Origin: Chthonomonadaceae bacterium
Lineage (GTDB): Bacteria > Armatimonadota > Chthonomonadetes > Chthonomonadales > Chthonomonadaceae
Length of the DNA stretch: 42,256 nt
Assembly: GCA_025352825.1 (NCBI GenBank)
Contig: JANXSG010000235.1
Location: 1-42,256 of the forward strand
Direction: 5' to 3'
Shown: positions 3,670 to 42,027 of the stretch, in pieces
Layout of the letters: every line of letters starts with the position of its first letter
How positions within the stretch are numbered: the first letter of the stretch is position 1
Notes under the pieces: generated by a model
What the model was told of the DNA's origin: nothing
Database searches by the model: none
What the model saw: the letters and a program-made list of their open reading frames with translations, nothing else
Position numbers and translations under genes: made by a program

Positions 3670-3723
3670 ATTGTTATTATGGCACAATCCAACAATATTG
3701 GCAAGCTGGTATATATTCTAGCC

Positions 3724-3955
3724 TCTTGCAAAAGCATCAAATAAGTTGAAACAATCTTCACGCGCTCACCCCTGGCCCCTCTCCCAAAAACTGGAGAGAG
3801 GTGACTTTGACGAAAGGTTTCCAGTATTTTGTCAATTGTTAAACTAATACACAATCATTTCCCATGTAGTGGGAAAGTGAAGAACCAAAAATTATAGCTC
3901 CCTTCCCCTGTTTTTGGGGAAGGGGAACGAGGGCCATGCCGAGGGTGGGGTTGGA
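3724..3955. repeat. Dispersed paired-hairpin element, copy B
   Basis: The left end, CTTGCAAAAGCATCAAAT, matches the left ends of copies at 18.93 and 41.96 kb. It is followed by CTCACCCCTGGCCCCTCTCCC with an imperfect hairpin, then a central CCCATGTAGTGGG hairpin, then CCCTTCCCCTGTTTTTGGGGAAGGGG. The order (left tip, hairpin, central CCCACnnnGTGGG, mirrored hairpin) is the same as in the copies at 18.93 and 31.48 kb. The right tip has diverged. No credible gene was seen in the 3670-4034 gap apart from this element and a terminator. Confidence 0.65.
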
Positions 3956-9751: not shown

Positions 9752-10573
9752 ATGGAGATTTCGAAAATCATCAAGATCAGTGGAGTAATATCTGCTATCG
9801 CCATCACAGTAGGTCTGACGGGCAGCCGTGCAGAGGCCAAGCCAGAGTTTGCTGTAAAGGAGAAAGTGAACTGTCTCTATTGTCATGTAAAGCCGGGTGG
9901 TGATCGTAATTTCCGCGGACTTTATTACCATGCCCACAAACATTCATTCGCAGAGTTTGACAACGAGTATGAGGCGAAAGCTGCTGGAGTAGACCCGAAA
10001 AGCGATGGCCCAGATGCAGTAGCTACTGTATCTGACTATCCTGATATAAAAGTTCCTGACACACTGAACTACGTAATGAAAGATATTGATGGTAAGCCAG
10101 TCAATCTTGCACGCTATCAGGGCAAAGTTATCTTGCTGATGAATGTCGCTTCTAAATGCGGCAACACTCCGCAATACGCAGACATGGAAAAACTTTACGA
10201 TAAATATAAGAGCAAGGGATTAGTAATCCTTGGCTTCCCTGCAAACGAATTTGGCAAACAAGAGCCTGGAACCGAAAAAGAGATCAAGGAGTTCTGCACC
10301 CTGACCTATGGTGTGAAATTCCCAATGTTCTCAAAAATCGTGGTAAAGGGAGAAGGCCAACATCCGCTTTACAAGTTCCTCACAGATAAGAAAACCAATC
10401 CGAAATATGGCGGGGACATCCAGTGGAACTTTGATAAATTCCTTATCAATCGTAAAGGTGAAATTGTAGCACGAATTGAACCACGAACTAAACCGACAAA
10501 TGATGATGTTGTCGCTCAGATTGAAAAGCTGCTTGAAGAACCATCGCCGAACGACAAAACGCTAGTAAAGTAA
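9752..10573 (+). CDS. Exported CxxCH-domain glutathione peroxidase fusion
   Basis: The 273-residue protein has a signal peptide (residues 1-28, ending SRAEAKP). A short haem-binding-like domain follows, with CLYCH at Cys41/Cys44/His45 and conserved text around RNFRGLYYHAH. From about residue 100 to 265 lies a glutathione peroxidase domain. Its catalytic cysteine is in ASKCGNTPQ (Cys136), the Gln in FPANEFGKQEPG, and the Trp-Asn in IQWNFDKFL, so the peroxidase tetrad is complete with Cys instead of selenocysteine. It should reduce peroxides outside the cytoplasm, perhaps with electrons from thioredoxin-like proteins or through the c-type haem. The latter is inference. GGAG lies 8 bases upstream of the ATG. 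The CxxCH might instead be a redox pair. Confidence 0.88.
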   Translation: MEISKIIKISGVISAIAITVGLTGSRAEAKPEFAVKEKVNCLYCHVKPGGDRNFRGLYYHAHKHSFAEFDNEYEAKAAGVDPKSDGPDAVATVSDYPDIKVPDTLNYVMKDIDGKPVNLARYQGKVILLMNVASKCGNTPQYADMEKLYDKYKSKGLVILGFPANEFGKQEPGTEKEIKEFCTLTYGVKFPMFSKIVVKGEGQHPLYKFLTDKKTNPKYGGDIQWNFDKFLINRKGEIVARIEPRTKPTNDDVVAQIEKLLEEPSPNDKTLVK

Positions 10574-10583
10574 CGCATATTAA

Positions 10584-10766
10584 CCTTCACCCCCCTTCCC
10601 CCTCTCCCAAAAACAGGAGAGGGGGTTACAAGAGTATGTTCTTGACTTCATTGTGATTGGTATCATTCTCGATTCAAGATCATCCCATGCCTGAATGTGA
10701 TTCGGTGACCGATGATTTAAGCTCCCCATCTCCTGTTTTTGGGAGAGGGGGTTGGGGGTGAGGGTA
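10584..10766. repeat. Dispersed paired-hairpin element, copy E
   Basis: CTTCACCCCCCTTCCC leads into the stem CCCCCTCTCC/GGAGAGGGGG around CAAAAACA (10598-10625). About 90 bases later the mirrored hairpin CTCCTGTTTTTGGGAGAGGG is followed by GTTGGGGGTGAGGG. The two halves are an inverted pair. The element fills the gap between the convergent peroxidase and dehydrogenase genes and ends a few bases from the dehydrogenase stop codon, so it may also act as a terminator for both. Confidence 0.7.
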
Positions 10767-18664: not shown

Positions 18665-18931
18665 TTCCTTAGGGAAATTATCGTTGATTTCGCACTTTAT
18701 TACGCAGTGATAGTTGAAATACATAACCAATAATTTAATTCTAGCATATTAAATCTCGCTTACATCAAACTTTATACCATGTATATGGGTTGATTGCTCA
18801 AAACGTTGCCATAGTGGCTATCACTTTTACAAGTTCTTCGCTTTCATCATCTTGGCAAGCTCCTCACAATTAATATTTTATTCTTCCAACTATTCTGCTC
18901 AAAGGTACGACAAACGCTTAGATATAAGCGA

Positions 18932-19190
18932 TAATTGCAAAAGTCTCAAAGATGATGAAAAACTCGTTCTTGCCCTCACGCCCTGCCCCCTCTCCCAAAA
19001 ACAGGAGAGGGGGGTGAATATGTCATCAGTTTTTCAAAAGTATTTAAGTTTTTGATCTTAATATAAGTATAAATCCCACGAAGTGGGAGAGCGGAAACCT
19101 ACGATTTAAAGTCACCCCCTCTCCTGTTTTTGGGAGAGGGGGCTGGGGGTGCGGGCTGAAATATGCGTGTATGTACGACTTTTGCAATTA
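18932..19190. mobile_element. MITE-like element with 14-bp terminal inverted repeats (copy F)
   Basis: TAATTGCAAAAGTC at 18932-18945 is the exact reverse complement of GACTTTTGCAATTA at 19177-19190, giving a 259-bp element. TA at both outer ends could be a target-site duplication as left by IS630/Tc1-mariner enzymes. Inside lie CCCTCACGCCCTGCCCCC with the hairpin CCCCTCTCC-CAAAAACA-GGAGAGGGG, a central CCCACGAAGTGGG hairpin, and the mirrored hairpin followed by GGGGGTGCGGGC. There is no coding capacity. Copies or fragments occur at 3.7, 10.6, 31.5, 39.9 and 41.96 kb. It is presumably moved in trans by a transposase not present here. Confidence 0.75.
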
Positions 19191-19833
19191 CCTCAAAACA
19201 TTATCATAACGTAAAAAATTCGGCATCGAAGGACAGTTGAATGGACAGTATAAACAATTTCTTGGAATGGCAACTCTATTTTCCATGATGCTAGCTTTGG
19301 TTTCAGGCCAGGTAACCGCACATCCATAGCTCATTTGCGTTTTGAACTATCAATTGAAAGCCGCATTACTCTTCCGATAGTGATGGGATATTGTTTATGA
19401 ATTTATCTGTTCCCGTCATTCCAAATTCAATCTGTAATTGCTCAGCATGGCTATCCGCCACGATCGAGTATTGTCTTATTTCAAATTTGAATTATTGAAG
19501 ATGTAGGCTGAGTGAACTCGAAGACAGTATAAAATAGCCGTAAAAAAGCACAAAAAGACAATCAGAAATTTCTAAGTACAAAAAATTGGCATAATTATAA
19601 GCAGAAACCTTTTTTACGCATTTTGTACTTTTTTGTGGCTATTTGTACTCACTTATATTGATCATTAATACCTATTTTCGAGATTAATACTAACGCAATT
19701 GACTATAATCAGATTTTGCTGAGTAGTTACCTGCAATCTGCAAATGTTCGATATTGAAGAATCAGAGGAAATTGTACACTGTATAGATAACATCTGTCAG
19801 AAGTGATCACTATGAAACTGAGTTAAGAACACC
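19191..19833. other. Gene-poor gap upstream of the secreted esterase
   Basis: No reading frame with a recognisable product was seen on either strand. The stretch is A+T-rich and holds the inverted repeat listed separately at 19532-19644. A short open stretch near 19270-19390 does not resemble a family and lacks a start, so it is not called. Confidence 0.5.
19532..19644. repeat. A-rich imperfect inverted repeat
   Basis: AAATAGCCGTAAAAAAGCAC at 19532 onward is mirrored at 19621-19644; 21 of 24 bases pair, with a separation of 65 bases. Inner A-rich words such as AAGTACAAAA recur between the arms. It may be the pair of ends of a very short element or a structured leader of the esterase transcript. 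Confidence 0.5.
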
Positions 19834-25685: not shown

Positions 25686-25904
25686 TTTTTTCTCCACTTC
25701 AATTTATTACATTTTTGCTTTACTAAGAACTCTACATGAGGATAAAACTACATTCGTATAACAAACTCTTTTTAGACAAGATAGCTGTAAAAGTTAATAA
25801 CTGATGTTACGCAGGCGAGCTATTCATGAGATCGAAAAAAGATTTTCTATCTTTGGTATAAGCGAAAGTTAGCAGAGTCTGAACAGTAAGATTCGTGCGA
25901 CGGG

Positions 25905-26081
25905 TTTAAGGGGCTGTGAAAGTAATCTTAATTTCTACATTTCCCGGGAGTTGAAAACTCCTGACATCAAAAAACAGGCGTCTTTCAGACGCGAATCCCG
26001 CACGCAGGCCTTCCAGACGGGTACTTCAGTGCCTGGCAATGCATGATGAACTATACGGTATCACTTTCACAACCCCTTAAA
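25905..26081. mobile_element. Second MITE-like element with 22-bp imperfect terminal repeats
   Basis: TTTAAGGGGCTGTGAAAGT at 25905 onward is mirrored at 26060-26081 (20 of 22 bases pair). The 177-bp interior carries a small hairpin array listed separately. It has no coding potential. A solitary copy of the terminal sequence occurs at 39810-39831. This suggests a short element moved in trans. The gap 25698-26491 holds this element, further hairpins, and no gene that I can support. Confidence 0.6.
25945..26040. repeat. Short-hairpin array, left copy
   Basis: In order: GGGAGTTGAAAACTCC, GCGTCTTTCAGACGC, a degenerate CAGGCCTTCCAGACGG, and GGGTACTTCAGTGCCT. Stems of five or six bases surround loops of about three to four bases. 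The same hairpins occur in the same order, inverted, at 26927-27041. Confidence 0.65.
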
Positions 26082-26926: not shown

Positions 26927-27041
26927 CAGGCACTGAAGTACCTGTCTTGGAAGCCTGCACCCAGCCGTCCTCCGGACGGGAATTGCGTCTGAAGGACGCC
27001 TGTTTTTTGATGCCGGGAGTTTTCAACTCCCGGAGGTTTCA
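26927..27041. repeat. Short-hairpin array, right copy (inverted)
   Basis: In order: AGGCACTGAAGTACCT, CCGTCC-TCC-GGACGG, GCGTC-TGAAG-GACGC, and GGGAGTTTTCAACTCCC. It is the inverted counterpart of the array at 25945-26040. Its end touches the stop codon of the acyltransferase gene, and it may serve as that gene's terminator. Confidence 0.7.
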
Positions 27042-31481: not shown

Positions 31482-31680
31482 AGCCCTCACCCTCCGACCC
31501 CCTCTCCCGAAGCTTCGGGAGAGGGGGTGACTGTGGTATGGATTTATCAATATTACATAAGACTTTGCTATTAATATAAGCACATATCCCACGAAGTGGG
31601 AGACAGCAAACCAACGATATAAAGCTCCCCCTCTTCTTCGGGAGAGGGGGTCGGGGGGTGAGGGCTGACTTTTGCGACTT
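31482..31680. repeat. Dispersed paired-hairpin element, copy G
   Basis: CCCTCACCCTCCGACCCCC leads into CCCCCTCTCCC-GAAGCTTC-GGGAGAGGGGG. The centre ATATCCCACGAAGTGGGAGA is nearly identical to the centre of the 18.93-kb copy. A mirrored hairpin and GGGGGGTGAGGGCTGACTTT follow, ending in a TIR-like ACTTTTGCGACTT. The left terminal repeat is not recognisable, so this copy looks left-truncated. It lies between the SDR and secA genes. Confidence 0.75.
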
Positions 31681-31851
31681 CCTCGAGAGATTAGCAAATC
31701 TGTCAGTAGTAATTTCGAAACCTTCTCGGTCTTGGAAAACGTATTGTGAGCATGGTATACTATCACGGCGTTGTTACAAATACCAGTAAAAATGTGGAAT
31801 TAATAACTATTAACTAAGTACGCTCCCGCCGATCTGAGGTGAATTCATATT

Positions 31852-39708: not shown

Positions 39709-39809
39709 CTGCTTGGCCATACCTATGCTGGCATAGTCAGTACCAAAAGGTGTGCGCGATAGGATAACGTGGATTTGAAAGTATTTTCAAAACTACTGGT
39801 TCGCCGGGG

Positions 39810-39831
39810 TTAAAGGGGTTGTGAAAGTAAT
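39810..39831 (+). repeat. Solitary terminal repeat of the second MITE-like element
   Basis: TTAAAGGGGTTGTGAAAGTA followed by AT matches the terminal repeat at 25905-25926. No mirrored partner was seen nearby, so this looks like an orphan end. Confidence 0.55.
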
Positions 39832-39860
39832 ACGAAATGCAGATATAATCGCTTAAATAC

Positions 39861-39988
39861 ACCTCACCCCAACCCCTCTCCCGGTAACTCGCAAGCTCGT
39901 TGGGAGAGGGCCAATGCATGGTTTTAGTCACCCCTTCTCTGTTGCGAGGAACGAGCAATATGGGAGAGGGGGCAGGGGGTGCGGTTGA
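39861..39988. repeat. Dispersed paired-hairpin element, copy H
   Basis: CCTCACCCCAACCCCTCTCC leads into a first hairpin (closed by GGGAGAGGG at 39902-39910). CACCCCTTCTC later pairs with GGGAGAGGGGGCAGGGGGTGCG, the mirrored half. The two halves are close together, so the central part is missing. The element ends at the ATG of the TIGR03790 gene and forms its leader. Confidence 0.65.
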
Positions 39989-41085: not shown

Positions 41086-41952
41086 ATGGAGAAGATGGAA
41101 GTATTCGAAGTGAGGGACGAGGTATGGCTTGCCGAAAGAGTCAGCATTCTGCGTGAGGTACATTTTGCTGATGTACCTCAAGGATTGCCTATTGTCACTA
41201 GATTCGGCCCGAGGGCTCAGTATCGATTCGGCTCAATTGCAGAACGCCAAGGTGTCTCATTAATTATGGTGAACCGCCTCTTTGCTAATCTCCGAGTCCC
41301 CGTATTTGTGCTAGATGGCACCCTCGCCCATGAATTAGCGCACTATGCCCACGGATTCGGTTCTGGGCTTCCCCGGTTGTATCTGCATCCACACAGGGGT
41401 GGTGTGGTGGATATTGAACTGGCAAAACGCGGACTTGGCGAGTTAGACCGAAAAGCAGATGAGTGGCGTAAAGCCCATTGGGATACCTTTTATAAAAGCC
41501 AATGTGGAGATATCACCGAAAGAAAAACAGTACAATCCGAAACAATTGATGCAGTCTGGAGAAGGTTTATTGAACAGCCTGGCAACCGAACAGAATCCGA
41601 TATCAATCACAAGCTTCAAATTTTAATGAAGCAAATGAAAGTTCAATTCACAGAAAACCGAACAATTAATGTGGAGTGGATGCATGCTTCTGTCAGGCAG
41701 AAAGGCCTCTCATACTGGTTTCCTATAGAAGGAAAAATAAGTCTGCATGGCCTGCTTTCCGATAGACGTGTTCCTGAAACGGTAATAGAATTTGAACTGA
41801 GTTACTGGCTTGCAAGATTGGTCGTGGGGTCGAATTGGCAAAAAGTTCATGCCGTGCTCAATAGAGTCGGGCTTGGAGTAACTATGGAAAATGGAGTGCA
41901 TTGGCGAACGAAATCGTGGCCTTCGTTCATGAAACGTAATCACCCTATATAG
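41086..41952 (+). CDS. Putative zinc metalloprotease with HELAH motif
   Basis: The 288-residue protein has HELAHYAHGFGSG (His82, Glu83, His86), the HExxH zincin signature, after SLIMVNRLFANLRVPVFVLDGTLA. HPHRGGVVDIELAKRGLGELDRKADEW could supply the third ligand (a downstream His or Glu). The C-terminal half is diverged and has no second motif. I do not recognise a named family; it resembles SprT- or M48-like minimal proteases only in the motif context. No signal peptide is seen. It is tightly coupled to the TIGR03790 gene, so the pair may act together. The sequence gives no substrate. Confidence 0.68.
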   Translation: MEKMEVFEVRDEVWLAERVSILREVHFADVPQGLPIVTRFGPRAQYRFGSIAERQGVSLIMVNRLFANLRVPVFVLDGTLAHELAHYAHGFGSGLPRLYLHPHRGGVVDIELAKRGLGELDRKADEWRKAHWDTFYKSQCGDITERKTVQSETIDAVWRRFIEQPGNRTESDINHKLQILMKQMKVQFTENRTINVEWMHASVRQKGLSYWFPIEGKISLHGLLSDRRVPETVIEFELSYWLARLVVGSNWQKVHAVLNRVGLGVTMENGVHWRTKSWPSFMKRNHPI

Positions 41953-41954
41953 CC

Positions 41955-42027
41955 TTTTGCAAAAGTCTCAAAATGATCAAAACACTCTTCACGCCCTCAC
42001 CCCCCATCCCCATAAGCGTTAGGTTAA
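41955..42027 (+). repeat. Left end of the dispersed paired-hairpin family, copy I
   Basis: TTTGCAAAAGTCTCAAAATG and CACGCCCTCACCCCCC match the left end of the 18.93-kb MITE-like copy. It then continues CATCCCCATAAGCGTTAGGT instead of the usual stem. A relative of this second part lies inverted at 26196-26245. Confidence 0.65.

Follow-up and report, generated by a model that had tools for sequence, protein, structure and literature searches.

Twin triplex-motif-like arms carried by a probable IS1182-like miniature transposon in a Chthonomonadaceae genome

REPIN and BIME repeats are inverted pairs of short palindromes that lie between genes in many copies, and triplex-type palindromes are otherwise known as orphan repeats whose spread is unexplained. 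The triplex motif (TM), earlier called the PIT element, is described by Holder et al. (2015, PMC4666352) as a C-rich/G-rich hairpin with a G-rich third strand after it, located between genes and sometimes present as inverted pairs, and the authors report that it is not associated with transposons or mobile elements in E. coli MG1655. The repeat studied here has the three-block layout, the intergenic position and the inverted pairs of TM/PIT, but unlike the E. coli motif it is the cargo of a transposon. Its arms also resemble the hairpins shown for Enterobacter sp. 638 in PMC2869309. On the transposon side, it is similar to MITEPye1 of Paracoccus yeei in having 18-bp IS1182-family-like ends, direct repeats, a mainly intergenic location and a long stem-loop, but PMC11578231 gives MITEPye1 only 1-3 copies per chromosome. 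The ISMac2-derived MITEs of Methanosarcina acetivorans are likewise of the IS1182 family (14 and 7 copies) and have 4-bp direct repeats in one of two table rows in PMC3852290; they differ in being 160-169 bp long. ISUnCu17 and its plasmid relatives share GAG ends running into TTGCAAAA (or TTGC) and 4-bp duplications with our repeat, but they are autonomous, ~1.4-1.5 kb long, and no twin-arm cargo was seen in them.

The focal copy lies in a window of 42,256 nucleotides, meaning the whole stretch of DNA that was analysed, which is contig C182 of a draft Chthonomonadaceae genome (G000; 4,870,727 bases in 298 contigs). The SecA encoded in the window is 72% identical over its length to SecA of an uncultured Chthonomonas sp.; matches were obtained in 15 of the 17 genomes searched, and outside that genome the best single stretch has 62% identity over 441 residues. 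The organism is thereby placed in Armatimonadota. The ends of the repeat are 18-bp terminal inverted repeats with the consensus GAGGTAATTGCAAAAGTC, and therefore the boundaries of the focal copy are at 18928-19194 (267 bp). An earlier note on this DNA, made from the letters alone, had described perfect 14-bp inverted ends; these are present as TAATTGCAAAAGTC and GACTTTTGCAATTA at 18932-18945 and 19177-19190, but the true repeat is 18 bp. A sample of 703,245 bases, which is 14% of the genome and was partly picked for matches, yielded 149 matches to the ends, and in these conservation extends 4 bp past the TA at which the shorter repeat stops, out to GAG, leaving the TA internal. Variants of the end include GAG[AC]CTTTTGCAAAAGTC and GAGACTTTTGCAAAAGTC.

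Reading from the left, a presumed target duplication ATAA (18924-18927), its 4-bp length set by the family, precedes the left terminal inverted repeat GCGATAATTGCAAAAGTC (18928-18945, plus strand), whose outer GAGG is degraded to GCGA. After a subterminal stretch (18946-18971, plus strand) comes the first G/C-rich arm, GCCCTCACGCCCTGCCCCCTCTCCCAAAAACAGGAGAGGGGG (18972-19013, minus strand), which resembles the TM motif as set out in PMC4666352. A spacer of about 100 bp (19014-19114, plus strand) separates it from the second arm, inverted relative to the first and placed by arm complementarity (19115-19156, plus strand), and a right subterminal stretch (19157-19176, plus strand) leads to the right terminal inverted repeat GACTTTTGCAATTACCTC (19177-19194, minus strand) and a presumed right target duplication AAAA (19195-19198), read at the focal copy itself and matching the left one at only three of four positions. 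The terminal repeats were placed from the collection of ends, and the subterminal stretches and, in part, the spacer from an alignment of 22 full copies. The two mirrored hairpins claimed earlier are these arms, which are 93% complementary, and the central CCCACGAAGTGGG hairpin is likewise there, at 19075-19087 in the spacer, though poorly conserved across the 22 aligned full copies. No open reading frame of 80 aa or more lies inside the 267 bp, hence the element has no transposase gene of its own.

The TA found on both sides of the 14-bp repeat had led to the suggestion that this is an IS630 or Tc1/mariner MITE duplicating TA, a reading we now regard as virtually untenable. The TA is part of the 18-bp repeat, some ends have no TA at that position (TGAGACTT), and what is duplicated are the 4 bp outside GAG. 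In our genome 12 of 43 non-redundant flank pairs are exact 4-bp duplications against 0.69 expected, with 5 the highest of 500 shuffles, and mean flank identity is 0.58 versus 0.33 for shuffled pairings. Scanning other lengths and offsets gave no comparable excess of exact matches except at two positions within the same 4 bp. The same ends in other genomes behave alike: in a set of 37 short elements (79-291 bp), 15 of 37 non-redundant pairs are exact (0.71 expected, highest of 1000 shuffles 5). The remaining 31 of the 43 pairs from our genome have no exact 4-bp duplication, and some duplications look 5 bp long (ATACT at C60, ATATT at C34).

Empty sites, which the earlier note had proposed to seek in a relative as a single TA, were found as paralogous copies in the genome itself and contain, in three cases, a single 4-bp target rather than one TA. 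Joined flanks were used as queries for 47 elements; six gave spanning matches, one of which (C164) was a self-hit and was dropped, leaving 5/47 with paralogous copies that do not contain the element. Such copies are available because the element sits within other repeats. Two elements (C261:20600 and C212:4795) occupy the same position in another palindromic mini-element; an empty version of that host in C34, in which ACTT (AAGT on the other strand) occurs once, can be aligned to both without gaps. C74:34175, a sister element that bears a different cargo, is inserted in a member of the focal family, and dozens of members of that family are empty and have one TATT. The fourth case, C298:22756, aligns gap-free to empty copies in which its 4 bp are not conserved, and C34:9846 needs a one-base gap against its empty copy, and its duplication may be 5 bp long. 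For 27 elements from other genomes the joined flanks gave three matches that spanned the junction, and none was counted: L116 and L162 had matched themselves, and the match of L180 to L143 extended just 14 bp beyond the junction. The IS630/mariner reading is refuted by where the duplication lies and how long it is, and by the empty sites.

A search for a transposase with the same ends, also proposed earlier, was successful. An exact scan of named genomes with GAGRTAATTGCAAAAGTC gave at least 89 stretches, and among the matches listed are Lentisphaerae, Syntrophaceae/Smithella, Fibrobacterota, Chlamydiae, Treponema and others. One of the loci, L126 in Syntrophobacterales GWC2_56_13, is a complete element of 1510 bp with the same ends, a duplicated TGTT and an ORF of 366 aa that encodes a DDE transposase matching PF05598 and PF01609, both above cut-offs, which again does not fit IS630 or Tc1/mariner. 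This transposase is under every NCBIfam cut-off, the best being IS1182 (NF033551) with 68.8 bits against a cut-off of 270, so that by NCBIfam's curated rule it is not IS1182; IS5_4 gave 63.3 bits against 140. Its nearest plasmid relatives, ISUnCu17 among them, are annotated as IS1182-like and their transposases are 43-48% identical to it. GAG ends with a 4-bp duplication are seen for ISUnCu17 in Aeromonas (ATGA) and for a relative in Comamonas (TGGT), while an Acinetobacter relative has TTAG duplicated in one of its two copies and TATA/TTAA at the other. The ends are thus common to L126, ISUnCu17 and the Comamonas element, and the 4-bp target duplication of our repeat is that of the plasmid elements. 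Since the 4-bp duplication and the GAG ends go with the L126 transposase, we assign the repeat to IS1182-like MITEs and not to IS630/mariner; it is very probably a miniature transposon with ends of the IS1182-like ISUnCu17 group and a twin-arm cargo, spread to hundreds of copies.

A transposase relative at an E-value of 0.001 or better is present in 6 of 31 genomes bearing the ends, and so in most of them only ends or mini-elements were found. In our genome a 982-bp remnant (C213:34724-35705) has both ends and internal stops, and has only the ends in common with the MITE. Further transposase fragments lie in C149, which has two, and in C95 and C139, where they are N-terminal. With the queries used, an intact transposase was not found in this assembly, which is 95% complete and in which repeats may be collapsed, and it appears that the autonomous partner has decayed here. 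We envisage that an IS1182-like DDE transposase supplied in trans would bind the 18-bp ends and cut out or copy the element; the flanks and empty sites show that it inserts with duplication of a 4-bp target. The cargo-bearing form has come to number, by estimate, several hundred copies, complete or partial, and those retained lie almost exclusively between genes and often just past stop codons.

The genome-wide search for the terminal repeat, set as a check beforehand, gave 89 exact matches to the 14-mer and none to its reversed control, which speaks against a chance repeat, and a search with the 259-bp element gave 396 first-look candidates, of which 40 were scored, many at full length, the best being 78-100% identical. 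A profile built from the 22 full copies has 128 merged matches in the 703,245-base sample, 33 of them covering at least 0.9 of the model. Scaling from 20 matches in 206,663 bases (20 contigs chosen by number) gives ~470 copies per genome, fragments included. Conserved ends, target duplications, empty sites and copies in the hundreds bear out the earlier description of the repeat as MITE-like. Six profile matches in the window likewise agree with the figure of one copy per 7 kb given before, and all five related copies listed then do exist. These are a decayed MITE copy at 3720-3933 (nhmmer 121 bits, placed with regional identities); a twin-arm copy at 10570-10764 without recognisable terminal repeats and with a strongly diverged spacer, directly past the stop of the ORF at 9752-10573; a left-truncated copy at 31482-31683, in which a degraded right terminal repeat adjoins the arm; a weak twin-arm-like match of the arm region only at 39899-39988 (E 4e-4; given as 39.86 kb in the earlier note); and the left end of a truncated copy at 41951-42011 (given as 41.96 kb). 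All are on the plus strand and are among the profile matches.

Median pairwise identity among full copies is 0.78, and most copies are old. A pair of elements with a sister cargo, in C60 and C122, differs at only 2 of 222 positions, from which we infer that movement continued until recently. The exact 18-mer occurs in 5 of 291 genomes of the phylum; it is present 67 times here, whereas each of the other four has one to three copies, a pattern suggestive of horizontal arrival and a subsequent burst in this genome.

Genes are avoided, with 5 of 79 matches within ORFs of at least 150 aa against 60.6 expected. Of the 57 intergenic matches, 26 lie no more than 30 bp past a stop codon, where the null has a mean of 11.4 and the highest of 500 draws is 17. 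This bias would fit arms that have a cellular function, for instance as terminators or 3'-end structures, so that copies are kept for that function and transposition only seeded them. Termination has been suggested for the similar repeats of Enterobacter 638 in PMC2869309, and the arms stay ~0.9 identical where spacers drop to ~0.6. Against this, the stop-codon bias may reflect target choice, and earlier work, as reported in PMC4666352, saw no promoter or terminator activity of such motifs. Moreover, none of 53 arm-stem substitutions is compensated in the local partner, and 2/53 are shared with the other arm where 1.2 would be expected. A role of this kind is compatible with a miniature transposon, but we think it unlikely. 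Selection for the hairpin as an RNA was rejected on the same lack of compensation (0/53). The window has no RNA family at gathering thresholds, and at permissive E-values the element gave a microRNA precursor and other models far under their cut-offs, as any long hairpin may.

The cargo itself consists of two G/C-rich arms in inverted orientation that resemble the intrastrand-triplex (TM/PIT) motif. The strict E. coli TM consensus, as given in PMC4666352, has no match in the 703,245 bases, and a relaxed version, which keeps the three-block layout but allows one mismatch in each block and looser linkers, has 59 matches, both focal arms included, and none in a shuffle. In 200 kb of a relative, G034, in stretches picked for matches, the relaxed layout has 34 matches. 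Among 127 arms in our genome, 125 overlap profile matches, and for 72 a terminal repeat that faces outward lies no more than 60 bp away. The family spacer is present in 30 of 45 twin pairs and 28 of these have at least one end, while 11 of the 15 with diverged or unrelated spacers have no end at all. Two of the 15 have both ends, lie at or just below the spacer cut-off and belong to the family; in setting that cut-off one background draw probably fell on a real copy, and the background was repeated with 300 draws and known copies masked.

Twin arms without ends are a minority here and abundant in G034, in which exact ends were not found. The flanks of the G034 twins, inspected by eye for a target duplication, gave no consistent pattern and were left out of the counts. 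Being intergenic and inverted, they recall REPIN or BIME elements, and one could ask whether the whole repeat is such an element, moved by a RAYT (Y1) transposase, with incidental terminal repeats. The likeness extends to the high copy number of intergenic inverted palindrome pairs, but our element has conserved terminal repeats with target duplications, its empty sites coincide with those repeats, and the candidate enzyme is a DDE rather than a Y1 transposase. RAYT products are not known to have terminal repeats or target duplications. We therefore consider this reading highly improbable for the element, and it may still apply to end-less twin arms.

End erosion in old copies is the main alternative for these end-less twins, and would mean that they are eroded MITEs and that the cargo has no independent existence in this genome. 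Nine of the diverged twins have spacers of 91-98 bp, close to the canonical ~97, with a likeness that is weak but above all 300 draws, which argues for erosion. Four others have unrelated spacers of 84-174 bp, which argues against it, as does the abundance of end-less twins in G034. In the diverged twins the arms are ~0.9 identical to the consensus and spacers ~0.6, with ends at background and no compensatory changes; uniform decay would not give this pattern, though detection favours conserved arms. Overall, we judge erosion as the full explanation possible but somewhat doubtful.

The miniature transposon is not the only element on these ends. Besides the twin arms, at least two more palindromic units lie between these ends in our genome. 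Six paired elements are twins of the type GCCTAACCCCC...CCCCCTTCCC (e.g. C60:6024), CGACGAAATGAATTTCTTCGC palindromes with the same ends are found in C11, C84, C124 and C159, and a probable fourth cargo in C22, C142 and C237 is cut by contig ends. An end lies within 60 bp of 25/57 type-2 arms and 10/17 type-3 arms, and at least two cargo types occur also without these ends. Only the 18-bp ends are common to different cargos, the subterminal stretches being different. Other genomes, in other phyla, have the same ends around other palindromes; 11 of 19 such cargos fold with z <= -2.5 versus 3/19 flanks, and the other eight are not markedly palindromic, so a palindromic interior is common and not universal. 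A search of 12 genomes found the GTCATTTCGAGCG...GGAATGAC repeat in 9, with 51 matches and three exact ends in G280 and 47 matches and no exact ends in G049. Among 20 loci inspected, it has these ends in G280 (Armatimonadota) and Smithella/Syntrophaceae and is without them in G280, Smithella/Syntrophaceae and Fibrobacterota. Neither the focal cargo nor that of L136 matched plasmids, and the exact 28-mer of the triplex hairpin had no match in viral contigs.

Having at least three unrelated palindromic cargos on one 18-bp end in this genome, and the GTCATTTCGAGCG cargo both inside and outside the ends, we tentatively propose that IS1182-like ends may act as a general carrier that has repeatedly packaged resident palindromes and dispersed them both inside single genomes and across phyla; that resident repeats were captured is inferred. 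If this is true, orphan palindromes such as the triplex motifs and GTCATTTCGAGCG...GGAATGAC owe part of their spread to carriers.

By its ends and duplications, and as far as sequence can tell, the element is one of the IS1182-like mini-transposons, a known kind. The triplex-type cargo and the interchangeability of cargos look new. The earlier view that no named family has this structure is accordingly right in part: IS1182-like MITEs are known and the arms resemble a published motif, but in open-licence full texts, where absence is weak evidence, neither the core terminal repeat as a bacterial element nor anything joining such ends to the triplex motif was found. Most triplex-type motifs in this genome ride a transposon whose ends and target duplication are defined and for which there is a candidate group of transposases, and their dispersal is therefore testable. 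It also raises the question of whether other orphan palindromic repeats have eroded transposon ends.

Several neighbouring repeats and individual copies were recorded along the way. Members of a second mini-element family, whose ends are like GGGCGGGTCAAAAGTC...GACTTTTGACCCACCC, sit in the G-rich arms of at least three copies of the focal family, apparently a preferred target (C34:9846-10272, L039; C212:4795-5218, L044; C166:46425-46722, L051). A palindromic repeat with AGCCGTAAAAAAGCAC-like ends adjoins the focal element in the window (19502-19678), and it is also found inside other copies of the focal family and as host to such copies (C10:20954-21525, C212:8823-9395 and C117:7516-8065). Another repeat, which has GGGTTTAAGGGGCTGTGAAAGTAAT ends and small hairpins in series, is in the window at 25902-26081, 26927-27033 and 39807-39833, and its arms at 25944-26008 and 26969-27033 are 88% complementary. 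The copy at C117:33902-34168 has the loop of its second arm inverted (AAAAACA for TGTTTTT), as might result from a cruciform or from template switching. In a Chlamydiae genome, the 291-bp element at L172:7448-7738 has the same ends and is an almost complete palindrome with a folding z of -23.6 and flanks TGGA/TCCA. Two genomes of the same family as ours, G012 and G003, each have a related mini-element of 99 bp in which these ends surround a different interior (L268, L269). A CRISPR-array-like stretch with the repeat CTCTACTCGAACCAATGTGGAATTGAAAC occupies positions 1-230 of L203 in C149 and ends slightly more than 100 bp before an IS1182-like remnant.
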